In this document: positions 5,475 to 61,865 of the stretch, piece after piece
Layout of the letters: each line of letters begins with the position of its first letter
Numbering within the stretch: position 1 is the first letter of the stretch
Assembly (NCBI GenBank): GCA_001972305.1
Contig: BDDD01001577.1
Span: 66,437 to 130,436 of the forward strand
DNA: 64,000 nucleotides
Reading direction: 5' to 3'
Source of the DNA: Cephalotus follicularis
Taxonomy: Eukaryota; Streptophyta; Magnoliopsida; Oxalidales; Cephalotaceae
The notes under the pieces: model-generated
What the model was told of the DNA's origin: nothing
Seen by the model: the letters and a program-made list of their open reading frames with translations, nothing else
Databases searched by the model: none
Translations under genes and position numbers: made by a program

Positions 5475-5535
5475 TATCACGCCCCCGTTTTCCACAACAA
5501 GACAACATAAGTGGTAAGGCAATCAACATAATATA

Positions 5536-5643
5536 ATTCAGCTCATGCGACAATACGAATAAACAAAAACCTTCGATAGCGGAAGCAATAACATAAATGA
5601 GCCGAATTTAAATACGCATCACGCATCCCATACTACATGATGC
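5536..5643 (-). other. T2 3' structured element in S1 (SL1 plus long-range stem)
   Basis: On the minus strand SL1 pairs GCATCATG with CGTGATGC around TAGTATGGGATG (5616–5643), with one G·U-type pair. The long-range stem pairs ATTCGGCTCAT (5597–5607) with ATGAGCTGAAT (5536–5546), also with one wobble. GCTTCCGC (5579–5586) lies between its arms. See the finding on T2 structures. Confidence 0.75.
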
Positions 5644-6784
5644 CCAACAAGTTTATATATAAAATCCAACCTCATTATCGATCGCCCAAAAACAGAGTGT
5701 GATAAAATACAGTACGAGATAACAAAATATCCTTTGTTACAATAATCCAATAACATGATCAATGTTCATTAACTCAATACAGGAAATAAGAGAAATAACC
5801 AAGTCTTCTCTTTAAGTCTTCACGCATCCCATATCATGTCCACTCCATCAATCTGTTACAGTAGGGGTTAGCCTTTGTCCTCACTCGGCTAAGTGAATAA
5901 ACTTATAAATACAGTTCGAGTTAGATGATAATGAGTATCATGAATGAATGCATTATGATGCAGTATGACATGAAATCTTCACAGTAATTTTATCCCCGTA
6001 TATACATATAAAAATATATGTACATGCTCACAGTACAAGTATAACCTCATAAGGCTATAACACACAAGCAGTAAAATGTTCCAAAAGGAACCAGAGAGTC
6101 CAGTCGTCCTGACCGTCGCCACCTCCTGGCCCGAACGTCAAGCACTCCTACCCCATCCCCGTTTGCGAACGGTTTTGGAGCAAGTCCTCCGTAAGTTGCT
6201 TAGCACGGCGGCTAAACCGACAGCAGTTACTAGCACAGCGGCTGAGTAGTCAACAGGCACAAGCATTACACAGTACAAGTCAAGCAATAAAATATAATTA
6301 CTTGATCAAATATATTTGTTTAAAATATATTACTACATTCACAAGTTGTGATTGGTTATAAAACTTAAAACAATACATTTGGTTGTATAACCAACCCTTT
6401 AAAACATTTCTCCGTCTTTGGGAATACTTCCCTACTCATTTCGAAAATATATAAAATCGTATGTTGACAAATATATATTTTCGCATAATATATTTGATTG
6501 CATAATCAATCCTTTAAAACATTTCTCCGCCATTGGAAAATACTTTCCCCAGTCAGTTCGAAAATATATAAAATCATATGTTGATAAATATACATTTTCG
6601 TACAATAATGATTATAAAAATCATGCAAGCTTTTCAATATGGTTAACACTTTTTAGAAATCAACCATAATGTAAATCACAGTAACAATGCAAACATATGC
6701 TCAGAATGCATCTAAGATCGCTCCTAGAGTCGTTTCGGGTTTAGCGGGTCCCATTGGAGTGAAATTCCATTAAACAGGGAGATA

Positions 6785-11208: not shown

Positions 11209-11860
11209 TTTTGCCCAGAAAAGTACCGTTTTCAACTGTTTTGATTCATTTGTTCCTCGAATCGACCCGAGTCTTTTCTAAACACTGTAATAAGTATGTT
11301 TAATGTCTCTGATGTTTCTTAGACCCTTATATGAATGATTTTGGTTGTCTTTTAGATTGTTGTGCTTCAAGGGGGAGTTTGTTTTAAATCATCTATCCGT
11401 AAGTTCATTGTGAACGTATAAGGTACGGATGTTTCGTTCCTTGATACCCTCCTATCGGTTTTACTGTAGTAAATAAAAGATAGCTTTACTTTATGAATAA
11501 TGTACGGATTTCTATCGTTCCTTGGCTATCTGATTTTCGAACTGAAAACGGTTTTGCTTTATGTTATGCTTCTTCATTTATGAACTTGGAAATGTTTTAT
11601 GGTTTTGACATGTTTCGGAAATGAAGTTGGTTTTTGACATTTATAAATGATTCCGACTTTATTCATATGATACGATATGTTATGATCACCTATTTATAGC
11701 GAAGTATAAATGAGTTGATCATTTGGTTATGAAATGTATGATATGATATCGTTGTGAACGATTTTCCAATATGTTTTGTGAAAGCATATTTTATGTGGTT
11801 TTAAATTGATTTCAATAAATCAATGTTTTTGAAATGATTAGATAGTGAGTATTGTACCCA

Positions 11861-11980
11861 CCTATGGGGCGTACCATAGGCATGTCATAGGTCTGGCACG
11901 GGGACATGACACTTCCGTAGCGGTGTGATTAGTCTACGGCGTCTCTGAGTGTTATGAATAAATCCCATGAGGTGGATTTA
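11861..11980 (+). other. Hairpin cluster HP1–HP3 in the 3' LTR of El-1
   Basis: CCTATGG/CCATAGG (11861–11880), CATGTC/GACATG (11881–11908) and TAAATCC/GGATTTA (11959–11980), as in the 5' LTR. Confidence 0.7.
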
Positions 11981-12560
11981 TGGATCCACTATGTGATAGA
12001 GGCGTATGAATCAATTCTTGTATATGATATGTGATCTGATGTGTGATCGGATATGTGATATGTGAGGATTGACATGTGTAGTGCCGTACACTTCATTTCT
12101 AGTGGGCATGTGGAATTAGCTCCTCCCTTGCCAATATATGATGTGAAATGTGATATGTATGTCGCTCAGTATGACTTATAAATCGTCAAATGACATTTTT
12201 GAAATGTTTCATAAATGTTTCGAAAGATATGAAATTGGTATTTTATGGATATTCGAATATGGTGTAAACTGTTTAAGATTTCTGTTATGGATTATATTGA
12301 AATCTTACTGCTTTTAAACTTATCGTTTACTGTTTTATTTCCCTTATCCGTACTGAGGTTTGCTCAACTGCATTTTTGTTTTCCATGCGGCAGGTTATCG
12401 GGAGCAGCGATGAAATGTGTAACGCCCGGGATTTTCATTTATGTGTAATATTGCTTTCCAATGTAATTTTACACCTTGTGTTAATGAGAATCGTGTTTTC
12501 CTTCTTTCCCGTGTTGAAACGTTGCAAGAAAGTGTGATGATGTGTGTTTTTGTACAGGGG

Positions 12561-14452: not shown

Positions 14453-14568
14453 GGAATCATGCGGTATGGGACGCATGGTTCCGTTTGTTTTCAGCTTATA
14501 TGAATGCTTCCGCAAGATGATGTCTGTTTAAAAGTTTTAAATTTTTATCGTTCTCTGTATAAGCTGGA
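14453..14568 (+). other. T2 3' structured element in S2
   Basis: SL1 pairs GGAATCATG (14453–14461) with CATGGTTCC (14474–14482) around CGGTATGGGACG. The two outermost loop pairs are C–G and G–C here but T·G and A–T in other copies, which is compensating change. The long stem pairs TTCAGCTTATA (14490–14500) with TATAAGCTGGA (14558–14568), and GCTTCCGC lies between. Confidence 0.78.
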
Positions 14569-15344: not shown

Positions 15345-17430
15345 ATTACAGGAGGTTTATCCAGAACTTTTCAAGGATAGCCGAGCCCTTGACTAGACTG
15401 ACCCAGAAGAAGACCTTGTTTATCTGGGACAAAGATTGTGAAGCTAGTTTCCGTGAACTAAAGGATCGGTTGGTTTCCGCTCCTATCTTGGCATTACTTG
15501 AGAGTAATGAGGGCTTCGCAGTCTACAGTGATGCTTCGGGTAAGGGATTGGGTTGTGTGTTGATGCAACGAGGCAGAGTGATCGCTTACACTTCGCGGAA
15601 GCTAAAGCCGTACAAGGAGAACTACCCGACGCAAGATCTTGAATTGGCCGCGATTATCTTGGCTCTTCAGAAATGGAGACATTATCTATATGGGGCACAG
15701 TTTGAGATTTTCACTGACCACAAGAGTTTGAGGTATCTTTTCTATCAGGATACACTAAACATGAGACAACGACGATGGGTTGAGTTCTTTAATGATTATG
15801 ACTGTAGTATTCAGTACCATCACGGGAAAGCGAACGTGGTCGCTGATGCTTTAAGCCGTAAGGCTATGGTTGCTAACACGATGATATCTCAGTGGAAGAT
15901 GTTAGAGGACTTCCAAGAGTGGTCTCCGTTTAATCAGTCACCGGGGATCTTTGTGGCCAACATGCGAGTGCAGCCTGTGTTACTGGATCACATCAGGGAT
16001 GCACAATCGCACGATCCGGAGTTGCAATGAAGTCGGGAGAACCTGGACTCAGAATCCGATTTTTGAGTACATGCTGATGGTCTTCTGAGATATTGGGGAC
16101 GTGTGTGTTTCCCAGATGAACCAGGGTTGAAGAATGAGTTGCTTCGCGGGGCTCATAAATCTTTGTACAGTATTCATCCTTGTAGCACTAAAATGTACCA
16201 AGATATGAAAAGGACTTACTGGTGGCCTGGCATGAAGCGCAAAACTGCAGAATATGTCGCGAAGTGTTTGACTTGCCAGAGGGTCAAGGCTGAACACCAG
16301 AGACCGACAGGACTGTTGCAGTCATTACCAGTGGCATGATGGAAATGGGAACACATCACGATGGACTTTGTTTCTGGATTTCCACTGACTAAGCATCGTC
16401 ATAATTTCGTGTGGGTTATTGTTGATAGACTCACCAAATCAGCACACTTTTTGCCTACATACATCACTGATTCAGCCAGTAAGTTGGCTCGATTATATGT
16501 GTAGGAGATTGTGAGACTACACGGTGTTCCGGTGAGCATCGTTTGTGATAGGGATTCGATCTTCACTTCCAACTTCTGGAAGAGATTTCAGACATCATTC
16601 GGAACGAGATTGAATCTCAGTACTGCTTTCCACCCTCAAACAGATGGACAATCAGAGCGTACCATCCAAACCTTGGAGGATATGCTTCGGGCTTGTGTGA
16701 TCGATTTTGCTGGGACATGGGAAGACCATATTCCCTTGATAGAGTTTTCGTACAATACAGCTATCACGCGAGTATTGGTATGGCTCCATACGAGGCACTG
16801 TATGGGAGGAAGTGTAGGTCACCCATCTGTTGGGACGAGGTTAGTGCACGACCATTGCTTGGGTCGGATTTGGTGGAGGAGACTTTGAAGAAAGTCAAGT
16901 TCATCAAGGAGAAGTTGCTAGCAGCACAGAGTCAGCAAAAGATCTATGTCGACAGTGTGAAGAGGACGCCTTTGACCTTCAGTGTGGGAGATCATGTGTT
17001 TTTGAAGGTATCTCCGTGGAAAGGCGTACAAAGATTCGGAAGGAAGGGAAAGTTAGTGCCACGCTATATTGGTCCTTTTGAGATTCTGGAGAGGGTTGGG
17101 GAGGTAGCTTATCAGCTAGCCTTGCCTCCTACATTGTCAGGTGTACATGATGTCTTCCACATATCAATGCTATGAGGTTATATCCGAGACCCATCACATG
17201 TCTTGGATTGTGACTCGGTTACGGTGAGGGATGATCTTTCTTTCGAGGAGTCACCCGTGAGAATCCTAGATCAGAAGACAAAAGTATTGAGGAACCGAAC
17301 CATTCCGATGGTAAAGGTTTAATGGCAGTTTCATCATCCGGATGAGGCAGCTTGGGAATGGGAAGAGGATATTCAGGAGAGTTACCTTCACTTGTTTTTG
17401 TATATGTAAATTCGAGGACGAATTTCTCGG
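15345..17430 (+). pseudogene. pol of El-2, end of RT to chromodomain-type tail (fossil)
   Basis: It opens with the end of RT ([20 protein letters not shown]). RNase H follows, with [17 protein letters not shown] near 15520 and DHKSLRY near 15720. The integrase then has [43 protein letters not shown] and [17 protein letters not shown], and a C-terminal part with [14 protein letters not shown]. The chromodomain-type tail lies before 17400. It is very close to El-4 pol, so the two belong to one subfamily. It carries several breaks. Confidence 0.88.
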
Positions 17431-19808: not shown

Positions 19809-19916
19809 ATCACGTAGTATGGGATGCGTGATACATATTTTAATTCAGCTTACTTCATGTTATTGCTTCCGCTACTGAAGGCTTTTTTTTATACATAATA
19901 TCGCATAAGCTGAATT
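19809..19916 (+). other. T2 3' structured element in the El-2 LTR
   Basis: SL1 pairs ATCACG (19809–19814) with CGTGAT (19827–19832) around TAGTATGGGATG. The long stem pairs AATTCAGCTTA (19842–19852) with TAAGCTGAATT (19906–19916), an 11-bp perfect match, with GCTTCCGC between. Confidence 0.8.
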
Positions 19917-24528: not shown

Positions 24529-26706
24529 CTAAAACAAATGCGGGTAACGTTCTCGTATATCATCCTCACGTTCCCAAGTCGCTTCATCCGGTCGATGAAA
24601 TTTCCACTGAACCTTTACCATTGGAATTTTCCGATTCCTCAATACTTGTGTCTTCCAATCCAAGATTCTCACAGGTGACTCCTCGCAGGAAAGATCATCC
24701 CTCACCGTAACCGAGTCACAATCCAGGACATGTGATGGATCTCGGATATAACCTCGTAGCATCGATACATGGAAGACATCATGTACGCCGGACAAGGTAG
24801 GAGTCAAGGCTAGCTGATAAGCTACCTCCCCAACCCTCTCCAGAATCTCAAAAGGACCAATATAGCGTGGAGCTAATTTGCCCTTCTTCCCAAATCTTTG
24901 CACCCCTTTCCATGGAGATACTTTCAAAAACACGTAATCTCCAACATTGAAGGTTAAAGGCCTTCTCTTTACACTGTCGGCATAGCTCTTCTGCCAACTC
25001 TGTGCTGCTAGTAACTTCTCTTTGATGAACTTGACTTTCTCCGAAGTCTCCTCCACCAAATCCGACCCAAGCAATGGTCGTTCACCAACCTCGTCCCAAC
25101 AGATGGGTGACCTACACTTCCTCCCATACAGTGCCTCGTATGGGGCGATACCAATACTCGTGTGATAGCTGTTATTAGAAGAAAACTCTATCAGAGGGAT
25201 ATGGTCTTCCCAGGTCCCGGCAAAATCGATCACACAAGCCCGAAGCATATCCTCCAAGGTTTGGATGGTACGCTCTGACTGTCCATTGGTTTGAGGGTGA
25301 AAAGCAGTACTGAGATTCAATCTCGTTCTGAAGGATGTCTGGAATCTCTTCCAGAAGTTGGAAGTGAAGATCGAATCCCTATCGCAAACGATTCTCACCG
25401 GAACACCGTGCAGTCTCACAATCTTCTTCACATATAATCGAGTCAACTTGCTCGCGGAATCAGTGACGTGTGTAGGCAAAATGTGTGCTGATTTGGTGAG
25501 TCTATCAACAATAACCCACACGGAATTATGATGGTGTCTAGTCAGTGGAAATCCAGAAACAAAGTCCATCGTGATGTGTTCCCATTTCCACTCCGCCACT
25601 GGTAATGACTGCAACAGTCCTGCCAGTTTCTGGTGTTCGGCCTTGACCGTCTGGCAAGTCAAACACTTCGCGACATATTCAGCAATTTCGCGCTTCATGT
25701 TGGGCCACCAGTAAGTCTTCTTCATATCTTGGTACATTTGGGTGCTACCAGGATGGATACTGTACCGGGACTTATGAGCCCCGTAAAACAACTCACTCTT
25801 CAACTCGCTATCATTCGGAAGACACACTCGTCCCTGAAATCTCAGAATACCATCGGTGTGTACTCGAAAATCGAACTCCGAATCCAAGTTCTCTCGAATC
25901 CGCTGTAATTCAGGATCATGCGGTTGTGCATCCCTTATGTGGTCCAGTAACATAGACCGTACTCGCTTGTCGGCCACAAAAATCCCTGGTGACTGATTAA
26001 ACGGAGACCACTCTTGGAAGTCTTCTAACATCTTCCATTGCGACACCATTGCGTAGGCAACCATAGCCTTGCGACTCAAGGCATCAGTGACCACATTCGC
26101 TTTCCCCGGGTTATACTGGATACCGCAGTCATAGTCGTTAAAGAATTCCACCCACCTGCATTGCCTCATGTTTAGTGTGTCCTGACAAAACAAGCACCTC
26201 AAACTCTTATGATCGGTAAAGATCTCAACATGCGCCTCATACAGATAGTGCCTCCACTTCTGAAGGGTGAAGATAATAGCTGTAAGTTTGAGGTCATTAC
26301 TCGGGTAGTTTTCTTCATACGGATTTAGCATCCTGGAAGCATAAGCGATCACCCTTCCTCGCTGCATCAGCACGCAGCCCAAGCCCTTACCCGACGCATC
26401 ACTATAGACTGCAAGGTCCTCATTACCCTCAGGTAATGCCAAGATAGGAGCGGAAACTAACCGATCCTTCAGTTCACGGAAACCAGCTTCACAATCTTCG
26501 TCCCAGGCAAACAAGGTCTTCTTCTGGGTTAGTCTAGTCAAGGGCTCAGCGCTCCTTGAAAAGTTCTGGATAAACCTCCTCTAATACCCCGCCAAGCCAA
26601 CAAAACTGCGTACCTCCATCACATTCTTCGGCTGTGGCCAATCTCGTACAACCTCTGCCTTCGACGGATCCACCGCCAAAGCCTCTCCAGATACAATGTG
26701 ACCAAG
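24529..26706 (-). pseudogene. pol of El-4, RT end to chromodomain-type tail (fossil)
   Basis: A long open stretch, 670 residues from 26541 to 24529, is the best preserved coding piece in the window. In order it has RNase H ([24 protein letters not shown]), the integrase zinc part ([32 protein letters not shown]), the integrase core ([38 protein letters not shown]), a C-terminal part with [20 protein letters not shown], and a tail ending WEREDDIRERYPHLF. The end of the RT lies between 26542 and 26706. There the element stops at a join to fragment G1, so it lacks gag, protease and most of RT and is broken as an element. Confidence 0.92.
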
Positions 26707-27258
26707 ACGGTATTCTTGCATATGAATGAATTGATTGTAACCTTGTGCGGTATTCTTGCATATGAACTGTTTATGGCCACTTGGCAGGATTGCTTATATA
26801 TTGGTCCACTGAAACATTATTTTGATATAAACTGTCATACATATTGCATTCATATATTCCTCAGCATACTTTATCTTCCTACTTAGCCAAGTGAGGACAA
26901 CGACTAACCCCTACAATTACAGATTGAGCTAGGACATTCGGAGCTTGCTACTGAAGCTTGGAGAGCTTCTTTTATCGTTTTAAGGTTGTTATATTTCTTT
27001 ATGATGGAATTGTACTTTGTAATGAACGAATGAATCATACCTCGTTTTCTTGTTGTATTCCTTGTGTTAAGGATAATAATTATCTTGTACCGCACGTAGT
27101 ATGGGATGCGTGCGGATGGTTGTATTTTATATTCCGGCTTATTGACTGCTTCCGCATATTGTTATATTCTGTTGAATGAAATGCTGGAATGTATGTTTAA
27201 TACTGATATCACCATATATGCTTGTCATTTGATGGTATTGAAATAACGGGGTGTGACA
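26707..27258 (+). mobile_element. G1: 3' part of a T2-related LTR
   Basis: It ends CGGGGTGTGACA at 27258 and carries the T2 acceptor block (CTAACCCCTACAATTACAG|ATTG near 26907–26925) and the T2 SL1. It matches G2 (37561–38065) and, reversed, part of S4. At its left junction a 19-bp sequence (CGGTATTCTTGCATATGAA) occurs twice, 40 bp apart. No target duplication is recognisable. Confidence 0.8.
27090..27190 (+). other. T2 3' structured element in G1
   Basis: SL1 pairs CCGCACG (27090–27096) with CGTGCGG (27109–27115) around TAGTATGGGATG. The long stem pairs ATTCCGGC (27131–27138) with GCTGGAAT (27183–27190), with one wobble, and GCTTCCGC lies between. Confidence 0.75.
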
Positions 27259-29216: not shown

Positions 29217-31941
29217 TGTAACACCCCCGGACGGCGGGAGTCGTCACAGGGTCATAACATTACTTATCTGAGCATATACATTATTTATCAAATCATAAGT
29301 TTGCTTTATTAGCCAATAACAGCCAAAACGTGGCAGTCTTATCAAAACAATAAAACTTAACCATTTAACATATTAAGTAGTTGCGGAAAACTCAAAACAT
29401 AATTCAGTTCCAATTTAAAAACATAAAACATAATAATCCATGTTTCTGACCACTAAACATAACATACGGATCACTCTCCTAAGGATCCAACACATAGGGT
29501 GGTCATCACTCAATCACACTTTTCCCCCGCTGCTCCTGAAAACCTGCCGCATGGAAAGAAAAACGCGGCTGAGCAAACCTCAGTACGGATAAGGGAAATA
29601 AAACAGTAAACGGTAATTTAAAAACATTAATATTTCAATAATAACGTAACAGAAATCTTTAACAGATAAAACAGTTTAATCATATTCAAATAACAATTGC
29701 TTATCTTCCGAAACAATTATGGAACATTTTAAAACATCAAGAATCATAGTTCATAAAACATACTGAGCCATATACATATCACATATCATAAATTTGGCAA
29801 GAGAAGCGCTAATACCACATGCCCACTAGAATTGAAGTGTACGGCACTACACAAGTCAATTCTCACATACACATATCCGAATCACTCCTCGGATCATATA
29901 TCTGATCACACCTCATATCTCATAAACTAGAATCGATTCATACGCCTCTATCATACATAGCGGATCCACAAATCCACCTCATAGGATTCGTTCATACACT
30001 CAGAGACGCCGTAGTCTAATCAAACCGCTACGGAAGTGTCACGTCCCCGTGCCAGGCCTACGACGTGCCTATGGTACGCCCCATAGGTGGGTACAATACT
30101 CAGTATTTATTTCAAAATTATTGATTTATCAAAATCAATTTAAAACACATAAAATATGTTCTCACACAACATATTCGAAAACCGCTCACAACGGTATCAT
30201 AACATATCGTATCATAACATGTCGTATCATTTCATATCATATGTATAAAGTCGGAATCATTTAAAATGTCAAACCAACTTTATATTCGAAATATGTCAAA
30301 ACCATAAAACATTGTTGATTTCATAAATGAAGACGCTTAGAAAAACAATTTTTAGTTCGAATATCAGATAGCCAAGGAACAGAAAATTCGTACCTTATGC
30401 GCTCACAAAGTACTTACGAATAGACAATTTAAAGGGAATCCACTTGAAGCACAACAATCTAAAAGGCATTCAAAAACATATGTATAAGAGTCTAAAACAC
30501 ACCAGAAGTATTAAACAGACTCTTAACAGTATTTGGAAAAGATTCGGATCAATTCGGGGATGAAACGAATAAAACAGTTGAAAACAGTACATTTCTGGGC
30601 AAAACAGTCGACTGGGGAAGCAAGACAGTCGACAATTCGAAAGGTCCAGTCGACTAGTCAAACTAAAGTGCAGGCAGTCAACTGTGTTCATACCTCCAAT
30701 CGATTACTCAACCTAAGGCAGTCGACTGCATTCATATGGCAGTCGGCTACTCAACCATTCCAGCCGACTGTCCACAGAGATAGCCGACTGTTCTGGGCGA
30801 CAGAACAGTTGGAAATTCGACAATTTGATACTGAAAATGATTCAAATGGTTTCTACATTAAACCAAAGACATATGGACATAAACATATGATTATATATGA
30901 CTTGTAGGTGGCATAAAAACACATAAACGACAGACAAACAATTGGACAGAGGCTTAGCCTCCAAGAGGAAGCAAGAAGGCAATGCATATTTATGTCCATA
31001 TTTTGTCTTTTATCAGTTATAGATGTTATAAACCCAGTTTATGACATATCTATGTGCATAAAACATATTGACAATATTACTAACACAATGACAACATGTA
31101 TAGGCAGTAATCAAGACCCAAAGGACATAAAGAGCATAAAACTCAAATTATGACATTGAAACAAAACTATCATTAGAGGAGACGAATTAATTGACCTGTA
31201 ATGACGTTAAGAACACAGAAAACACAGCAAGAATACGACGAATTCACTGATCAAACAACTGTACAGAAGGAGGACAAGAAAACAAAACAAGGAATACATA
31301 AATGCTCAACAAACTAGAAGAATTCAATCCAAAGAAATACGAAAGGACTGAGATTACCTCTTCGAATTTTGAAGAACGAATTACATAGCAGATGATCACA
31401 CACTAACAAGGCAGAATCGGCAGTGCATAAGGCAGAAAAAGAAAGAAAGAGGCAATTATAGAATGGCAATGGCACAACAAAAAGGAAAAAGGGGAGACCA
31501 ATTCTGCCCACATAAGGAAAAGGAGAGGATTTGTGGGGAATTAGAAAGGAAAAGAAGATTACAAACGTGTGAAAGTTAATGAGGGAGAGGGAGACTTCGG
31601 GTGATGAAGGAGAAGGAAGAAGGAAATAAGAAAGAAAAAGGAAAGAAGAGAAAAGGAAGAAAAATAAAGGGAAAAGGGAAAAATAAGGAATTAAGGGATT
31701 TTAAAAAATAAAATAAATGTGATTTGTTTTTAATAAAATAATTTGGATAATAAGAAAATAATTTAAAAGCCCAACCCAACAAAGCATAACATACCCAAAT
31801 ATTTAGGCTGTATCAAACAACCCAAATCACATAAGCACAAAACAAAAGGGCAACCGGACTTTAAAATTAAACACAATTAAAAAGCCCGAACACACACATA
31901 AAATCCGTAAAAATATATTTACGAACGAGCAGGGTATTACA
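29217..31941 (-). mobile_element. S3: solo T1 LTR inside the El-6 LTR
   Basis: On the minus strand it starts TGTAATACCCTG and ends GGGGGTGTTACA, flanked by the 5-bp duplication ATATT (29212–29216 and 31942–31946). Length 2725 bp. It is closest to the El-1 LTR. It carries HP1 (30068–30087), an HP2 whose arms are CACGTC/GACGTG instead of CATGTC/GACATG, and a GAG|GTAATCT donor-like site near 31357–31363 also seen in El-1. Confidence 0.95.
30605..30790 (-). repeat. Nine-copy palindrome array in S3
   Basis: Starts are 30605, 30626, 30647, 30675, 30697, 30719, 30740, 30761 and 30781; steps 20–22 bp with one of 28. Variants of CAGTCGACTG. Confidence 0.88.
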
Positions 31942-32244
31942 ATATTCAAAACGATACTCAAAATCTTTTTAACATTGTCCGAGTCAAAAAGGGGTTTCCA
32001 AAACAAAACATATCCGAATCCGATATCTCATAATAGCGATCCAAAATATAAATAACAAAGACTTATCCGATTCCGAAATCTCATAATAGAGATGCAAAGT
32101 ACATATACATAAGTGCAAAGGGTTTGCAAGGCCCACATGCTCCGACGGAAAGACGTGTACGACACTACACAATCAAACCCCAAAATCCGAATCCTTAACA
32201 TATCCTAGGATCGATCAGTACGCCTCTATCACATAGCGGATCCA

Positions 32245-32364
32245 TAAGTCCACCTCATGGGACATATTCAAAACATAGAGAGACGCCGTAAACTAATCAC
32301 ACCGCTACGGAAGTGTCATGTCCCCGTGCCAGGCCTACGACATGCCTATGGTACACCCCATATG
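32245..32364 (-). other. Hairpin cluster in the left El-6 LTR
   Basis: HP3 has GTCC/GGAC in place of the El-1 ATCC/GGAT, a compensating change (32245–32266). HP2 CATGTC/GACATG and HP1 lie between about 32317 and 32364. Confidence 0.65.
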
Positions 32365-33097
32365 TGGGAAATATCACTGTATATCCAAAGTAAACATACT
32401 TCCTAATTTGAAAGTCATGTTCGTTTAACATACTTCCTAATGTGAAAGTCATGTTTGTTTAACATACTTCCTAAGGTGAAATTCATGTTCGTTTCTCAAA
32501 TCCAAAATCCGTATACTTTCGTATGTGAAAGTCATACTTAGTTTATAAAACCGGTGACATTAAACTTTAGTAGTAAAACAGATTTTATAAAACATCCGAG
32601 CTTGTATAACATTTCGTAAACATTTCAGAGCCAAAACATTTTATTTTCACAAAAATATCTTATCGACTTTACTCCTAAACATTTCAAAATACGGAGCATA
32701 ATGGAGTTCATAAAATCGAAGGGACATATTCATAAAGTAAAGCTATCTTTTTTCCATAAAAACAGTAGGAGGATATCAAGGAACGAAACATCCATACAAA
32801 AATATATTTGAATTCATTTCAGTAAAACCGAAGGAGTAAGCCAAGAACGAAGAATCCGTACCTTAAGCGATCACAAAAATAACTTTACGAATTGACAACC
32901 ATATTTAATATTTTTAAAAACTGATTTTAAAATACAAAACAATAAATTTTTGCTTTTCCAACATTCATATTCTAATAAATATGAAAAGCCCTAAATTAAA
33001 ATCATATAGCCCAAAGATCACATTATGCCAACATAATATAACAAATCTAAATCAAATAAAAATCCGAAATTTTGCACTCGAAAATCTGGGTATTACA

Positions 33098-34567: not shown

Positions 34568-35521
34568 TCTTTGTAACACCCCCGATTCGGAGGGAGTCGT
34601 TACGGTTCCTAATCCGAGACTAAGCATAACCTATCATATAACATAGCTCAATTTTTATTCTTTTTATCAAAATATTAACTCATCTTTTATTTAAATTGTA
34701 TGATGGTCTAAACATAACATTTATAATCTAAGACATAATCTGAAACTTTATTCATAATCCAAAAAATTAAACATAAACCAAAGCTTAAACATTATTCTAA
34801 GTCATAAACTGAAAGACATAATAATACTCAAATAGGCGTTCTAACATGACCATAAAAATAACTAAGCATAAACGAGTCCATCTCCTAAGTGATCCTTATC
34901 ATAGGTGACATCTCGCTCATCACACATTGCCCGGATGTTGTCCCAGAATACCTGCCGCATGGAAACAAAAACGCGGCTGAGCAAACCTCAGTATAGATAT
35001 AGAATCATAAAACATAAAACGATAATTTAAAAGATGGAAAATACCTGAACCTTGAAATATCATACGACACATGTATAAAATAATTATAAACAGTTCTACC
35101 AATTCAAAACTAATATCCGAATTTCAAAACGTTAACAAATTTCAAGAACGATATCTGAAAGCAAAGTCTGATTTCAAAGAATAGTCTAAGTTTCGATGCA
35201 AATCAAAATAAAAAAACGATAATCAAAATGATACTCAAAATCTTTTTAACATTGTCCGAGTCAAAAAGGGGTTTCCAAAACAAAACATATCCGATTCCGA
35301 TATCTCATAATAGAGATCTAAAATATATATAACAGAGACTTATCCGATTCTAAAATCTCATAATAGAGATCCAAAGTACATATACATAAGTGCAAGCGGT
35401 TTGCAAGGCCCACATGCTCCGACCGAAAGACGTGTACGGCACAACACAATCAATCCCCAAAATCCGAATCCTTAACATATCCTAGGATCGATCCATACGC
35501 CTCTATCACATAGCGGATCCA

Positions 35522-35640
35522 TAAGTCCACCTCATGGGACTTATTCAAAACATAGAGAGAAGTTGTAGACTAATCACACCGCTACGGAAGTGTCATGTCC
35601 CGTGCCAGGCCTACGACATGCCTATGGTACACCCCATAGG
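35522..35640 (-). other. Hairpin cluster in the right El-6 LTR
   Basis: HP3 is TAAGTCC/GGACTTA (35522–35543), 7 bp perfect; in El-1 it is TAAATCC/GGATTTA. HP2 and HP1 (CCTATGG/CCATAGG, 35621–35640) are present. Confidence 0.7.
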
Positions 35641-36320
35641 TGACAAATATCTCTGTATATCCAAAGTAAACATACTTCCTAATGTGAAAGTCATATTCAT
35701 TTAACATACTTCCTAAGGTGAAAGTCATGTTCGTTTATCAAATCCAAAATCCGTATACTTTCGTATGTGAAAGTCTTACTTAGTTTATAAAACCGGTGAC
35801 ATTAAACTTTAGTAGTAAAACAAATTTTATAAAACATCCGAGGTTGTATAACATTTCGTAAGCATTTCAGAGCCAAAACATTTTATTTTCACAAAAATAT
35901 CTTATCGACTTTACTTCTGAACATTTCAAAATACGGAGCATAATGGAGTTCATAAAATCGAAGGGACATATTCATAAAGTAAAGCTATCTTTTTACCATA
36001 AAAACAGTAGGAGGGTAGCAAGGAACGAAACATCCGTACAAAAATATATTTGAATTCATTTCAGTAAAACAGAAGGAGTAAGCCAAGAACGAAGAATCCA
36101 TACCTTAAGCGATCATAAAAATAACTTTACTAATTGACCAACAATTTCTAATTGTCCCTCGTAGCACACAAATCTAAAAGATACAATATAATTCATATAA
36201 GCATTCAAATATCACTTCCAAACATTAAACAGTAACTTAATAGTGTTTAAAACAGACTCCAAATCATTACACGAATAAACGGATTACAAAACTTAAAACC
36301 AGAAAATTCCTAGGCAATTC

Positions 36321-38065: not shown

Positions 38066-38574
38066 TGTCTGCAAGTGGCCCTTATGACCAAAATAGAAGC
38101 AAGCCCCAGGCCTTATATCACCTTCTTGACTCGGAGTTCCCTTAGCTGCCGTTCGCCGAGAACTATTTTTCGATGACTTGGTCGAAGAGTCACCATCATG
38201 CCATTCTGACGGAGCTGGTCTAGTCCGCTTAGTTTGCTGGGTCTCAAAACACAGCTGCCGCATTTCCTCCAGGTGAGCCGTATTAGCAGCCACATGTTGA
38301 TGGAAATGGTCATTCACACGATCTATGTACCATCGCCGCAGGTCTTCTATGTTTGCCGCATCCATAGCCATCTGCTATTGAAAGTAGTCAGCCATTCGAT
38401 CCAGTGGATCTCTCCCATCATTTGTTCCCCGAGGAGCACTCCCCTCAACAGCCTTAGCTTTTCCTCTTCTGTCCATATTGTTTCCTATAAGAAGAGTGAC
38501 GGTCAGTCACGACTTTAGGAAAATAATTCATTAATTGCCAATGAAACTATCCTAGCTAAGCATATATGGAATAT
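38066..38574 (-). pseudogene. El-7 gag remnant and leader (fossil)
   Basis: The minus strand reads DRVNDHFHQHVAANTAHLEE, then QTKRTRPAPSEW, close to the gag of El-10. It is cut by the G2 join inside its zinc-knuckle part (CFYFGHKGHLQ). The leader between the LTR and gag (38480–38574) is retained. Confidence 0.8.
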
Positions 38575-38586
38575 GCTCTGATACCA
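38575..38586 (-). promoter_or_regulatory. Primer-binding site of El-7
   Basis: On the minus strand TGGTATCAGAGC, the full 12-base initiator-Met pattern, four bases after the LTR end at 38591. Confidence 0.92.
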
Positions 38587-41494: not shown

Positions 41495-41588
41495 TGTCAC
41501 ACCCCGTTTTCCACAAGACAACATATATGGAGATATTAGTTCTAATAATAATCCAACATTCAACATTAATCAACATCCGTTAACATAA

Positions 41589-41812: not shown

Positions 41813-43386
41813 CTGAAATTGTAGGGGGTTAGTCGTTGTCCTCACTTGGCTAAGTAGGAATAATGCATGAGGAAGAATACATAAATGTAAACATGTATGA
41901 AAATTATTTTGAATAACATATGTAAATAAGTATTCCAATATTTATGAGAAATCATGCCAAGTGGCCATAGACAATACAGTTCAGGAATACCGCACAAGGG
42001 TAAAATCAATCAATACAGTGGTTTGGGTGTCAAATGTCGCTAACACCTAGCACCAACTATGCACCACAAAACTATCACCCTACACTCCGAAGATGATAGA
42101 TCAAGTCAATTCTGCCAGCATTTAGAGGGTAGGTAACAATAAGGATCTGCATTGCAAATAAGTGTGGTGGAAGCTCTAGCCAACTCCTGGCACATAGGAC
42201 CACCCCGTAGCCAGTGATGTCTCCTATCACTCGACGAACGGCAATAACATAGACAAACAATTCAATCAATTCAATAGCAATATTACATATATCTATAATA
42301 TGCAATATATTAGTTGTTTCTTTTGGAAACATTTAACTGTTCAGTAACCGTACCTCTCGTTGGAGGAAACGGTACTCAATACAGTAGTTGTGCCTCTCAA
42401 TGGAGGAAAATCAGTAAATCATTTGACAATAAGTTTTCATTTTGAAAACAATAAGAAGGAAAATCCATATTTGTGCTTAGAGCACTAGTTGGTTCAATCA
42501 TTAATATTAAGTGTAACAATAGTATTTATGAACACTTAATAGCTATACAGTATCTATAGCAGCATCATTAATCAGTAGCGGAACAATCGCAATTCAAGGG
42601 TTCAACCAAGATGTTAGTATACCCTAATCATTCTTGCACAACTCTCGCAAGGAGTGCATAAGTCATTTACTTTATGTAATGTAACTACATAAGGCCAGGA
42701 TTGACTGTTACAATCATCCCATATGGAGGCCACAGTAATTGCATACAATTTAAAGCCTAACAGCAGTTAATATCAGTAATTTGTCACTTAGCAGTCGGCT
42801 GTTCATAAGAATAGCGGGCTGTTTTAATTAAGCAGTCGACTGTTTGTCCTTAACAGTCGGCTGTTTACATTGAGCAGTCGACTGTTAGGTTAAATAGTCG
42901 ACAGTTTTTGTCCAAAAATGTCAGGCAGCAGTTTAATCAAAGCAGAGTATACATGTACAATATCCAATTCAATCCAATTAATAGCATGCAATCACAGAGA
43001 AATTATCCATACATGCTATACATATTATATCTTCTAAAACATGTGAATACCCCAACCTCAAATGCTATCCCAAAATCAAATTGAGTTGATTTCTCTCTTT
43101 ATGTCCAACTCCAACAATCTCCAACAATTTTGAGTTCCAGGAGTTTAGTCTAGGTTTACATGTTAACAGAACGAAATCAGTAGCCGTATAGGTTTGATTA
43201 GCTACAACCAGTACCAAAATTAAGTCAATAATCTTAACAGTGATCTCTAAGCCTTGATTCTCATGAACACTTCAATTCCCGGCTTTGTTATTCTAACTCA
43301 TTTAACAGTGAATATATATAACTAACATCAGTATGTTTAATCCACTAACAACCTCAATATCAGTATAACTTGGATTGGTGACTTAC
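41813..43386 (-). other. Candidate leader intron in S4
   Basis: The minus-strand donor is TTCCTG|GTAAGT (starts 43386), a textbook plant donor that replaces the GTAGGG form. The acceptor is CTAACCCCCTACAATTTCAG|ATT (ends 41813). About 1574 bp. Confidence 0.5.
42792..42904 (-). repeat. Six-copy palindrome array in S4
   Basis: Starts are 42792, 42812, 42833, 42854, 42875 and 42895; steps 20, 21, 21, 21 and 20 bp. CAGTCGGCTG and CAGTCGACTG forms. Confidence 0.88.
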
Positions 43387-47871: not shown

Positions 47872-50800
47872 TGTAATACCCCGTTTTCTTCTGTATAAAA
47901 TTTTCGGGCTTTTCGATCTGTTTCGTGTGGGCTGTCGATTTTTTTTGGGTATGTGGACTGCCTATTTTTTGTTTGTTTTACTCTTGGTTGGGCTAAGAGG
48001 GTTTTAGCCTTAGTCTAGTGGGTTTTGATATTAAGTCTATGAATAAATAAAAACTTTTTGGCTTCTTATTTAAGTGTTAAAACCATTTTCAGCATTTTAA
48101 AAATCAAAAACCCTATTTAATTATTTAACTTTGTTTTCTCTCCCATTCTCTCTCTCTCCCCGCCACCTTTTCCCCCGCTCTCTCTCACATTCAGCCTCTG
48201 CCATCGGCGTCAGTACCGTTATGATACCGGTGAGGCCACCGGTCAAACCCCCACAGCCTCCCGAGCACACCGGACGCCATCCGCATGCTGGCAAACGTCC
48301 CCTTTGGCGTGCGTGACGTCTTCTCTCCCCGCCACTGTCGATCACCATATCTCCATCTCCGGTGATCGGCACGACAAGCCAAGATCATATTCAAATTCTT
48401 GGCATCAAGGGGAAGCGAACCCGACCAGCCCCGACCCTTGGCGGCGTCGGCAACGCAGATCGGCGGCAAAGTCAACTGCGGTCAAATGTGTTCATTCCGG
48501 CCAAATGCGGCAGCGTTGTGGCAAACATGCCCCGGCTATGTGATCCTCGAAATCCAATGCTTCAGATCCGCCCTTTCCAGTGTTTGACCGGCGACCGCGC
48601 GTGGCAGACATGCACCGGCCAGCGGCGGCGGGTGAGCCCACACACAGTAGTCTCTGACGACACATTTTAGATAGTTTTTCTGACTCCGTTCTACGTATAG
48701 GTGTGATCCGTTCCAGTTCCGCGGTGTGATTATGGCTCTATGCTCCATTTTGACTGCTTTTGGTAAACTCTGAATTCTACTCTGTTAAATTCTGTTTTCT
48801 GTTGAATTATGAATTTCTGTAATCGTTTTGCGATATTATGAGTTGAACTGGTTTTATGATTGGAAATTGAATGACCTGGACGACTGCTTGAATTTGTTGA
48901 ATTCAAAATTATGTTTAGATGTGGTTTCTGCAAATTGGACTTAGCAAACCTATTATTATCTTACATGGTCATGATCAGTGTACAATGACCCATGAGTTGA
49001 GGTCTGATTTTATTTCAAGTCCTTATGAGAACGATTTTATTTCTGTTAGATATTTGCAACAACTGAGGAGCGGTGTAGATAAGTCTCGATATATATTCTT
49101 GAGGTTGTTTTGGTGATTGCATGAGATACGGATGTCCTTCTTTCTTGGCTATCTTTCTGATTTTATTTGAAATAATTTCAGATTTTGTATTTGGTATGGA
49201 TGTCCTTTCCTTGGTTTCTCTATCAGATTTATTGAAATGAATTTGGAATATGTTATTAAGTACGGATCTTCGTTTCTTGATACACTTTTATCGACTTTAG
49301 TAGAGTATAAATTCAGTTTTATTTTGCAAATAAAATACGAATTCTTCGTTTTGGTTATCATTCAGTTTTATCTGAATTGAATTTGTTTTGTTTTAATGAA
49401 ATGTACGGATATTCTGCTCTTTGGCCATCTGGTTTTTAATGAACGAAAATCAGTTTTACTGTTATGATATGTTTCTTTGGTTTATGAACTTAATTATGTT
49501 TTACGATTTTGATATATTTTGAAAATAAAGTCGGTTTGACATCTTGCGAAAGTGAATGTTCCTAACTTTATACTTTTGCTATGATATGTTATGAAACATG
49601 ATATGATCATCTGTTTTATAGTGAAAATAAATTAGTTGATTTTCCGACTATGTGATATATGTGAATGAGATCGTTTGACAACGATTTTTAAATACGTTTT
49701 GAAAAAGCATATATTATGGACTTTAAATTGGTTATGATCAATCAATATTTTGGAAATGAATAAATACTGAGTATTTGTACCCACCTATGGGGCGTACCAT
49801 AGGCATGTCGTAGGCCTGGCACGGGGACATGTCACTTCTATAGCAGTGTGATTAGACTACGACGTCTCTCTGTGTAATGAATAAATGCCATGAGCTGGAT
49901 TTATGGATCCGTTATGTATGATAGAGGCGTATGAATCGATTCTAGTATATGGCATACGTGATGAGTTATGCAATATGTGATATGATATGTTTTGAGAATT
50001 GATATGTGTAGTGTCGTACACTTCAATTCTACTTGTCATGTGGACTTAGCTACTCCCTTGCCTATATGTGTTTCGATATGTGATACATTATGAGGCTCGA
50101 TATGGAACTTATGTTTTGAAAGGTTTCGTGTATGTTTCGAAAGTTATGGATTTGATTTTTATGAAAGTTCATATGTGACTTTAAAGAATGTTTAAATTGA
50201 TTTACTGCTTAAGATTTCTGTTTGGAGTTAACTTTGAAATCTTACTGCTTTTAAATTATCGTTATCGTTTACTTTTTGTTTTATTTTGTTCCGTAATCTG
50301 TTTGTTTCGTACTGTTTAGTAACTGTTTTCTTTTGTTTCGTAAATTGTTCTATTCTGTTTCGGAAAGTGTTTCGTTTCGTAAAATGTTTTGTATCGTATA
50401 GTGTTTGTTTTAGATACTGTATTGTGCATGATATTGTTTTGTTCTGGATACTGTTTCGTTTTGTAAACTGTCTTGTTTCGGATACGGTTTTGTTACGTAT
50501 TTTTTTTCGTAAACCATTCTATTTCGATTCGTATCTGTTTTGATTCGTAATTATGTTGTTTCGTAATTGATTTGTTTCATAAACTGTTCGTAAACTATTT
50601 TATGATTCTATATCTGTACTGAGGTTTGCTCAGCCGCATTTTGTTTTCCCATGCGGCAGGTTTTCAGGGGCAGCATGTGCATGTGTGATGAGAGGAACAC
50701 CTTTGACTTGAGCATTTCTTATGAGATGATTCTTTTAGTAATGTAATTATATGATTTTCGGACTATGTTATGTTATCAGATTGTATTTAGACCATCACGT

Positions 50801-54127: not shown

Positions 54128-54246
54128 GTAACATGTAGTATGAGATGCATGTTACGTATTTAATTCAGCTTATGATTATATGCTTCCGCAATGAAATGAT
54201 ATGGTTAGAAAGTTTTAAATTTACCGTATTTTTGTATAAGCTGAAT
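54128..54246 (+). other. T2 3' structured element in the El-8 LTR
   Basis: SL1 pairs GTAACATG (54128–54135) with CATGTTAC (54148–54155), 8 bp perfect, around TAGTATGAGATG. The long stem is ATTCAGCTTAT/ATAAGCTGAAT (54163–54173 and 54236–54246), with GCTTCCGC between. Confidence 0.82.
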
Positions 54247-59910: not shown

Positions 59911-61313
59911 GTAGGGGAAGCCATAATCGTATTTTTGAGATTAATATTCATGTTTGGACTATGGTTTTGTGCATAAATTGCATGATTATTGAACTGTTTT
60001 GATCACTGGGTCAATGTCATGTTATGCTGAGTATGTGATATGTATCTGCATGTTGGTTTTCTGGATTGATTTCATGTTGTCTTGCATGTAAATGGACCAT
60101 GCTAGTTACTGTTTGTCACGCTGTGAGGAAGAAGACGACTGGTGCTCGAAACACGTCGACGCCCTTTAGGAACATCAACGCCTTTGGGTTATCTGCTTGG
60201 TTATTGACGTATTATACATCGATGCCTAAGGTTCCTACCTTAACGCATCGACGCCTTAAGCAATACGCTGATGTTTAAGGTTCCATACCTTGAGCGTCGA
60301 TGCGTATAAAGATGGACATCGACGTCTTCAAACACTGACACTAAGGACTTGAACGTCGACGCTGAGGGACAAAGACATCGACGCCTTCTTGTACTGTTTG
60401 GGAGTTTTCTTATTTAACGATACAAATCGATCCTGATTCCTGTTAGGATGCATTTAAGCATTTGTATGCATTGAATATGTACTGTTTACTGCTTGTTATT
60501 GACTAGTTATAACTTGATTATGATTTATAAGTATTGTTATATTAGAAGTGCATATACGAGTTGAAAACAATTATGTTGAGTACGAAAATATAAAATGAAT
60601 ATTGTTATATTTTTGAACATCTTTGGGAAGCGATTTCCACTACTGAACTGTTTACAGTATTTTCTATCTATTAGAAATACATATTTCCAATGTTATCACC
60701 TTTGAAAATATTTGGAAATAAACTGCCTGTTGTTGGTCTAACGATCATTACTGTACTATTTACTGCACTATTTACTATGACTATGCACTGTTTGCTCTGT
60801 GAATTTTATGTGGTTGTGCTTTAGCCACTGGTTGCATGGCGAAGACTGCCAGCGCCGGCTAGTGGCAAGGTTGACCTAGGAGCCAGGAGTTGGCTGGGTA
60901 ACTCACTGTACTGTACTGTTGCCTCTCTTGGTTGCTTGGAGAAGGAACCGAAGTGGGAGTGTAGCGTGGGGCCAGGAGTTGGCGGTGTTACACATACTGC
61001 TTGCCTGTTTGTGGTCCCTTTATGGACTTACTGTACTGCTTGTTAGTCCTTTTCGTAAATTTCTATGCCTGTTGATGTAGCCCTGGCCGGGTTAACACTG
61101 TACTGCTATTGTATACATATATTTTAGTATATATGTCCCTACTGTTATTTTACTGTACTACTAAAGTATATATATATAGATATATATAAACTGGTATTTT
61201 CTACTGCACTGCATCATTTACGCATACATTTCATGATATGCATGTAATGTTGATCCCAAAGTACTCTTATGACTTAGCCGAGTGAGGACAAAGGCTAACC
61301 CCCTACTTTACAG
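59911..61313 (+). other. Candidate leader intron in the El-10 LTR
   Basis: The donor is AACAAAAG|GTAGGGG at 59910/59911. The acceptor is CTAACCCCCTACTTTACAG|ATTG ending at 61313. Length is 1403 bp. Confidence 0.55.
60150..60385 (+). repeat. TCGA palindrome array in the El-10 LTR intron region
   Basis: Cores lie near 60156, 60175, 60204, 60219, 60248, 60268, 60297, 60319, 60336, 60356 and 60378. Most steps are 17–22 or 29 bp. GCATCGACGCC, GCGTCGATGC and CATCGACGTC forms. Confidence 0.75.
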
Positions 61314-61527: not shown

Positions 61528-61641
61528 GTAGCGTGTAGTATGGGATGCACGTTACGTGCTTTCAGCTTATGACTTTTAATGCTTCCGCAACTGATATCAT
61601 GTTTGAAAGGTTTAAATTTAATGGTTCTTGCATGAGCTGAA
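61528..61641 (+). other. T2 3' structured element in the El-10 LTR
   Basis: SL1 is GTAGCGTG/CACGTTAC (61528–61555) with one G·U pair around TAGTATGGGATG. The long stem is TTCAGCTTATG/CATGAGCTGAA (61561–61571 and 61631–61641) with one wobble, and GCTTCCGC lies between. Confidence 0.8.
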
Positions 61642-61704: not shown

Positions 61705-61716
61705 TGGTATCAGAGC
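61705..61716 (+). promoter_or_regulatory. Primer-binding site of El-10
   Basis: TGGTATCAGAGC, the full initiator-Met pattern, four bases after the LTR end. Confidence 0.95.
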
Positions 61717-61865
61717 ATATTCCATATATGCTTAGCTAGGATATTATCCTCGGCAATTAACCGATTAGATAAGGAGCTTATTCAAGCTAATGAATTCCTT
61801 GGTGTTTAACAAAATGTTTCCTTGAGATAATTACTGATGACAATATTTCCATATAGGAACAAAAT

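Follow-up and report, generated by a model that had tools for sequence, protein, structure and literature searches.

A conserved hairpin and a longer-range stem near the LTR ends of a Ty3/gypsy element of Cephalotus follicularis: a candidate docking site for primer initiator tRNA-Met

LTR retrotransposons make up a large share of many plant genomes. In a 64,000-nucleotide stretch of Cephalotus follicularis DNA (the window) the 3′ ends of one group of LTRs, termed T2, hold two short segments nearly constant while the sequences flanking them change together, and the question is what such an arrangement serves. An earlier note on this DNA had proposed a conserved stem-loop in eleven T2 copies and a second stem in nine of them. 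All eleven are present in the window, and the interval 14453-14568 that it gave for one of them correctly spans hairpin 1 and both arms of stem 2 (Table 1).

The window contains fragments of Ty3/gypsy elements of plant type. Pfam matches fall in separate ORF pieces of several copies, with Retrotrans_gag in one kind of piece, RVP_2-RVT_1-RNase H in another and RNase H-Integrase_H2C2-rve in a third (rve below its cut-off). Read from these separate pieces, the gag, protease, RT-RNase H and integrase domains stand in Ty3/gypsy order; the scan covered 10 of the 15 listed ORFs, and no single intact element was read. A chromodomain match (PF00385; 20.6 bits, E 4e-4) in the ORF 24529-26580(-), adjoining LTR copy A21941, lies below the cut-off of 25.1. 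The domains point to a Ty3/gypsy LTR retrotransposon, which the sub-threshold chromodomain makes a chromovirus candidate. In two copies, C61536 and C38760, a TG...CA LTR is followed 4 nt on by a primer-binding site (PBS), TGGTATCAGAGC; the exact PBS is absent after the remaining T2 copies. In both PBS-bearing copies GCATATTCCATATATGC overlaps the last two PBS bases, where a small hairpin is possible (61715-61731(+), 38560-38576(-)).

By similarity the copies fall into groups A (5635, 19815, 21941), B (27097, 38019, 41642), C (38760, 61536) and D (14462, 54136, 55380). The label D is one of convenience only; the fitted tree puts 14462 with group C (support 67%). Copy 38019 stops short of stem 2, and the alignment-based analyses that cover this stem were made without it, on 10 of the 11 copies. 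These 10 aligned copies differ from one another at 14-49% of sites. The conserved structure sits within the last ~180 nt of the LTR.

Table 1. Positions in the window of the T2 structural features, associated LTR features and the conserved block of a second LTR family.
Feature	Copy	Position	Strand	Remark
Hairpin 1	D14462	14454-14481	+	8 bp + C-G, G-C closing pairs; loop GTATGGGA 14464-14471
Hairpin 1	C61536	61528-61555	+	5′ LTR with PBS
Loop GTATGGGA	C61536	61538-61545	+	TATGGG complementary to initiator tRNA-Met anticodon loop CCCAUA
Hairpin 1	C38760	38741-38768	-	loop GTGTGGGA
Hairpin 1	A5635	5616-5643	-	
Hairpin 1	A19815	19807-19834	+	
Hairpin 1	A21941	21922-21949	-	
Hairpin 1	B27097	27089-27116	+	
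Hairpin 1	B38019	38011-38038	+	loop GTATGGGC; LTR breaks off before stem 2
Hairpin 1	B41642	41623-41650	-	damaged; loop GTATGGGC
Hairpin 1	D54136	54128-54155	+	loop GTATGAGA
Hairpin 1	D55380	55361-55388	-	
Stem 2, 5′ arm	D14462	14490-14500	+	
Stem 2, 3′ arm	D14462	14558-14568	+	
Stem 2, 5′ arm	C61536	61561-61571	+	
Stem 2, 3′ arm	C61536	61631-61641	+	
Stem 2, arms	C38760	38724-38734 and 38655-38665	-	
Stem 2, arms	A5635	5597-5608 and 5535-5546	-	
Stem 2, arms	A19815	19842-19852 and 19906-19916	+	
Stem 2, arms	A21941	21903-21914 and 21840-21851	-	
Stem 2, arms	B27097	27131-27138 and 27183-27190	+	one extra base pair
Stem 2	B41642	41607-41612 with 41550-41556	-	weak
Stem 2, arms	D54136	54163-54174 and 54235-54246	+	
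Stem 2, arms	D55380	55345-55354 and 55273-55282	-	
GCTTCCGC	D14462	14506-14513	+	complementary to initiator tRNA-Met D-arm GCGGAAGC
GCTTCCGC	C61536	61581-61588	+	
GCTTCCGC	C38760	38707-38714	-	
GCTTCCGC	A5635	5579-5586	-	
GCTTCCGC	A19815	19865-19872	+	
GCTTCCGC	A21941	21884-21891	-	
GCTTCCGC	B27097	27148-27155	+	
GCTTCCGC	B41642	41589-41596	-	
GCTTCCGC	D54136	54182-54189	+	
GCTTCCGC	D55380	55329-55336	-	
LTR	C61536	58870-61700	+	TGTAACGCC...GGGGTGTGACA, 2.83 kb; 5′ boundary inferred from homology and TG start
LTR 3′ end GGGGTGTGACA	D14462	14609-14619	+	
PBS TGGTATCAGAGC	after C61536	61705-61716	+	4 nt beyond LTR end
PBS TGGTATCAGAGC	after C38760	38575-38586	-	4 nt beyond LTR end
Second-family block		1326-1497, 11857-12029, 49780-49951	+	
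Second-family block		29921-30091, 32196-32368, 35473-35642	-	

Hairpin 1 is found in all 11 copies and consists of an 8 bp stem with two loop-closing pairs. The stem arms quoted previously are in the sequence (ATCACG/CGTGAT at 19815, CCGCACG/CGTGCGG at 27097, GTAACATG/CATGTTAC at 54136, GGAATCATG/CATGGTTCC at 14462 and GTAGCGTG/CACGTTAC at 61536), as is the switch of the outer loop pairs to C-G and G-C, seen at copy 14462. The segment TAGTATGGGATG had been described as kept throughout; near-constancy holds for the 8-nt loop GTATGGGA but not for the whole 12-mer, which is exact in 6 of the 11 copies because its outer T-G and A-T are the loop-closing pairs of the hairpin. With up to two mismatches allowed, 13 occurrences of the 12-mer are seen where 5.3 are expected, and none of 100 shuffles reaches this count; 10 of the 13 are T2 hairpins. 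The ends of the loop may form a G-A pair, replaced by G-C in two group-B copies.

In an ungapped alignment of the 11 copies 92.7% of the 110 stem-1 cells are paired and 7 of the 10 pairs are altered on both sides. None of 500 shuffles reaches either value or the covariation score, and two reach the number of pair types; in slid controls pairing is at most 52.5%. A tree-based null was also used, in which sequences start from a root with all pairs formed and evolve free of structure along the tree fitted to 10 copies (1000 simulations). Neither the pairing nor the 16 both-side cells are matched in any simulation, whereas 13 reach seven both-side pairs and 55 the number of pair types. Stem 1 is thus strongly supported, and selection on RNA structure is supported for it.

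Stem 2 is clear in eight copies (groups A, C and D), with 10-12 bp. The nine copies claimed for it are reached with 27097, where the stem is good with one extra base pair; in the tenth, 41642, it is weak, and 38019 ends earlier. The quoted replacements TACAGC/GCTGTA (38760), TTCGGC/GCCGGA (55380) and TTCCGGC/GCTGGAA (27097) are present. With hand-anchored rows of 10 copies 93% of the stem-2 cells are paired, which none of 1000 tree-based null simulations reaches, but the six both-side pairs are equalled in 31 simulations, the six both-side cells in 335 and the nine pair types in 564. Pairing of stem 2 is maintained, but its covariation by itself is weak, so that the argument for selection on structure, made earlier for both stems alike, holds less strongly here. 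A plain MAFFT alignment gives 88.5% paired cells and also six both-side pairs. Misalignment of group-B rows is the sole source of two of them (51-130, 52-129), and a single A, C or D copy is the source of each of the remaining four (48-133, 50-131, 54-127 and, at the edge, 45-136). When 11,175 possible 8-bp helices are ranked over the 10 copies, with stem-2 rows hand-anchored, stems 1 and 2 are the top two independent helices.

The stems of these 10 copies contain 22 G·U cells against 2 A·C cells, one shared T·G pair contributing 9 of the 22. This imbalance favours a structure acting in the sense RNA. Folding energy over the whole region is ordinary (mean z -0.9 sense, -1.6 antisense); minimum-energy folds contain hairpin 1 in 7 of 10 copies and leave GCTTCCGC about half unpaired. 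In three group-A copies TATATAAA starts 23-24 nt before the 12-mer and, if a promoter, would place the transcription start inside the hairpin.

Two unpaired stretches, the loop G(UAUGGG)A and GCUUCCGC, are nearly constant. The 6-mers kept in at least 8 of 10 copies form three blocks only, one at the loop and the bases closing it, one at TGCTTCCGC and one at the LTR terminus. Over its 9 columns TGCTTCCGC is invariant in 10 of 10 copies, a run that occurs in 1 of 1000 null simulations. The mean pairwise difference per site is 0.00 for TGCTTCCGC and 0.07 for TATGGG, 0.38 for the stem-1 arms and 0.22 for those of stem 2, against 0.58-0.60 in the sequence directly flanking stem 1. Drift is thus seen in the stem-1 arms, although it is slower than in their neighbours, while both unpaired stretches hardly change. 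Outside LTR ends GCTTCCGC occurs once, at 15602(-); TATGGG occurs 42 times in the whole window. Copy A5635 carries a second TATGGGATGCGTGA at 5825-5836(-), ~200 nt upstream of hairpin 1 and without hairpin arms.

Judged by the PBS, the primer tRNA ends in GCUCUGAUACCA, and we take it to be plant initiator tRNA-Met, with a D-arm and anticodon loop presumably the same as in its human counterpart; in initiator tRNA-Met GCGGAAGC is taken to belong to the D-arm and CCCATA to the anticodon loop. Both strings are contained in human initiator tRNA-Met as printed in one source consulted in part (PMC8216282), and they are the exact complements of GCTTCCGC and TATGGG. At the RNA level UAUGGG is thus complementary to the anticodon loop and GCUUCCGC to D-arm GCGGAAGC of the human tRNA. 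The D-arm complement is found in all 10 copies that reach so far, and the 6-base loop complement in 9 of 11; copy 38760 has one wobble, keeping a G·U pair, and 54136 a mismatch (GTATGAGA).

Four of the 13 conserved 6-mers (GCTTCC, CTTCCG, TTCCGC and TATGGG) are complementary to the human tRNA. When this tRNA is shuffled, both complements are found jointly twice in 20,000 dinucleotide shuffles and never in 20,000 base shuffles, figures for a complementarity that was noticed after looking at the motifs and not predicted beforehand; singly, GCTTCCGC finds a complement in 113 and TATGGG in 366 of the dinucleotide shuffles. Among 37 control tRNAs, 3 human and 34 from one bacterial genome, the 8-base complement is found in none, the 6-base loop match in one and both in none. 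A pattern scan of viral contigs for a eukaryotic initiator tRNA gave none. When ~352 windows are ranked by duplex strength with the human initiator tRNA, GCTTCCGC comes first in every one of the 10 copies (mean -17.3 kcal/mol); with three other human tRNAs its place is 7th to 78th. The loop UAUGGG ranks 5 to 66 of ~352, which is unexceptional. As AUG pairs trivially with the initiator anticodon CAU, as any start codon does, the loop adds three informative bases. From the sequence the D-arm match appears strong and the anticodon match suggestive. An upstream TTATGGGC, the complement of GCCCAUAA, was also considered and is not conserved, being present in two of the 11 T2 copies (21994-, 38801-).

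The earlier note listed packaging, dimerisation, priming and translation as roles that would suit the structure. Priming is favoured among them, since the primer tRNA contains complements of both near-constant unpaired stretches. For dimerisation a kissing loop is not indicated, the loop GUAUGGGA being, by reading, without self-complementarity. On balance it seems probable that the LTR fold is an extended docking site for primer initiator tRNA-Met upstream of the PBS. In the sense RNA the last ~180 nt of the LTR would form this site just before the PBS. The six inner bases of the hairpin 1 loop G(UAUGGG)A would pair with the anticodon loop CCCAUA, and the longer-range stem 2 would enclose GCUUCCGC, pairing with the D-arm GCGGAAGC. 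The PBS, 4 nt past the LTR, would pair with the tRNA 3′ end, and the three contacts together would serve to choose the primer, keep it bound and place it for the synthesis of minus-strand DNA. This supposes a plant tRNA identical in D-arm and anticodon loop, a genomic RNA with this stretch at its 5′ end, and contacts that form and aid priming. With a docking site of this kind the stems would vary because only their pairing matters, and the two stretches would stay constant because the partner, a host tRNA, does not change.

The main competitor is that the fold is a structured leader element working via RNA or proteins (a Gag/nucleocapsid-bound packaging signal, or an export or stability element), in which proteins bind the loop and GCUUCCGC, or these two form a weak pairing of UGGGA with UUCCG that includes two wobbles. 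We regard this as unlikely, though it deserves serious weight. Protein sites, too, typically combine conserved stems with constant unpaired bases, and pairing of the loop with GCTTCCGC leaves just 2 of 50 cells unpaired; that internal pseudoknot, however, depends on two G-U pairs and breaks down in copy 54136, and it was set aside as possible but weak. The Ty1 5′ end, as described in the consulted part of one account, unites Gag-binding, packaging and priming signals (PMC4974528). What a leader element of this kind does not predict is the exact complementarity of both constant stretches to the primer tRNA.

The remaining explanations are all improbable. In one, translation would be regulated by the hairpin, its loop AUG serving as a conserved upstream start codon with a favourable context and GCTTCCGC being conserved for some other reason. 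Most copies have a purine at -3 and a G at +4 relative to this AUG, and ATG is kept in 10 of 11 (GTG in copy 38760), but the reading frames vary in sequence and length (7 to 21 codons among the 8 copies for which they were read), and the explanation is silent on GCTTCCGC. Slightly less probable still is a DNA-level feature such as a cruciform or palindromic protein site, or joint change through CpG decay or arm-to-arm template switching. The inner stem bases are CRYG in both arms, where CpG decay could act on both arms simultaneously and account for two of stem 1's seven both-side changes (columns 7-24 and 8-23 of the alignment), and the antisense folding z is as low as the sense one. Five of the seven pairs nevertheless lie outside the CRYG core, wobble pairs are retained in several copies, unlike the product of arm-to-arm copying, and the excess of G·U over A·C favours the sense RNA strand. 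The slightest chance is given to GCTTCCGC and the loop being targets of tRNA-Met-derived small RNAs in host silencing of the element, as slicing needs longer complementarity than 8 and 6 bases, and selection on the element would remove such sites, not keep them. The consulted part of a plant review does state that tRNA fragments can trigger small RNAs and LTR-element silencing (PMC12786077).

The proposed tRNA docking site resembles several known systems, here compared through parts of the cited papers. The HIV-1 A-rich loop pairs with the tRNA-Lys3 anticodon loop, a contact disputed between isolates (PMC3185550). Like the loop described here it is a hairpin loop upstream of the PBS and complementary to the primer anticodon loop, and it lies at the tip of the U5 stem with, in one isolate, a G-A closing pair to which that of hairpin 1 may be likened (PMC3185550). 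HIV-1 is a retrovirus using tRNA-Lys3, whereas the present case concerns a plant LTR element with initiator tRNA-Met and a D-arm complement. Ty1 shares the initiator tRNA-Met primer and a D-arm complement besides the PBS, its extra short stretches pairing with the T and D arms (PMC4974528). These stretches lie 3′ of the PBS, and the portion of the source consulted names no anticodon-loop one; those described here are upstream, within the LTR.

Ty3 is closer in class, being a Ty3/gypsy element with initiator tRNA-Met whose D arm touches the element RNA (PMC5371799) and with a bipartite PBS (PMC11381356). Its extra segments are in U3, at the far RNA end (PMC5371799, PMC11381356), whereas here they precede the PBS by ~115-165 nt and lie within structured stems. 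Published LTR structure models likewise link conservation to stem-loops in R regions and U5-IR loops, but their consulted part holds no plant chromovirus model or primer-tRNA complement (PMC3601003). The ENE triple helix of Evade/Copia93 is another RNA structure in a plant LTR retrotransposon; its U-rich internal loops lie upstream of the 3′ LTR and bind poly(A), while the stems here are inside the LTR (PMC12501189). In the portion consulted of a 2025 review on plant LTR-element host factors the primer contact mentioned is 3′ acceptor-PBS pairing only (PMC12786077).

The open-access literature searched, seen in part, yielded no primer-tRNA contacts beyond the PBS in plant LTR elements, with yeast and retroviral cases among the matches listed. 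A search of it for the motif letters gave no retrotransposon paper by title and the 12-mer once, in one HIV-1 paper. Within those sources primer-tRNA choice and placement beyond the PBS in plant LTR retrotransposons seems little described, and what may be new here is the proposal of extended primer-tRNA docking, known in HIV-1, Ty1 and Ty3, for a plant Ty3/gypsy LTR.

In a more general form, initiator tRNA-Met would be gripped by plant Ty3/gypsy LTRs in a three-point clamp, made up of a hairpin that kisses the anticodon, a long-range stem that holds the D-arm site, and the PBS. The hairpin with its G-A closing pair would be convergent with the HIV-1 A-rich loop, and the constant bases would be fixed by an unchanging host tRNA while the stems drift. 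We put the chance of this fuller claim a little short of even. If true, it would provide a concrete and testable RNA mechanism in an abundant class of plant elements, bring the extended-primer idea of HIV-1, Ty1 and Ty3 to plants, and offer a sequence signature for primer-docking sites in other LTRs.

Other classes and relatives were also sought. No Rfam family, the ribozymes of retrozymes included, matched in the 64-kb window, and lax thresholds on two LTR ends gave matches only far under the gathering scores. A Cassandra/Helenus-type LTR was rejected, since the stretches here are short tRNA complements and not tRNA-like; no tRNA-like or 5S-like sequence was found, with 0 tRNA genes by ARAGORN (bacterial settings) and 0 Rfam matches. 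A covariance-model search of the window returned the 11 copies used to build the model and two weak matches, which were discarded: 42980-43020(-) (18.8 bits, E 0.005), with no LTR end in its surroundings, and 60068-60093(+) (E 0.93), inside the LTR of copy C61536. Pattern scans of viral contigs gave one match, judged to be chance on reading 901 bases, and none in a second scan; a scan of genome contigs gave one bacterial match, also judged chance. With one pol ORF, protein scans found no relatives among viral or genome contigs, and a plasmid protein scan found one distant match (Wolbachia, 29.6% identity).

The LTRs of the window show further features. The T2 LTRs have a conserved block, TTAGCCGAGTGAGGACAAAGGCTAACCCCCTAC...CAG, at ~61274-61313 and equivalent positions. 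It contains a hairpin TTAGCC/GGCTAA, together with a CTAAC resembling a branch point and a CAG resembling an acceptor. By eye, the leader acceptor site that the earlier note placed upstream of the stems seems plausible. The GTGAGGACAA of this block precedes hairpin 1 by 192-246 nt in 10 of 11 copies and was not found in 54136. A donor-like AAAGGTAGGG at ~59911 in the LTR of copy C61536 is ~1.4 kb upstream of the acceptor-like CAG, and the two would be consistent with a leader intron inside the LTR. A second LTR family contains a block of ~170 nt that is strongly conserved among six copies (Table 1) and may be another structured RNA element; it has the inverted repeats CTATGG..CCATAG and ATAAATCC..GGATTTAT. 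The TATGGG repeats of this family were dropped from consideration as a possible paired arm. Finally, short interspersed repeats of the CAGTCGACTG/CAGCCGACTG type are found at 42780-42960(-).
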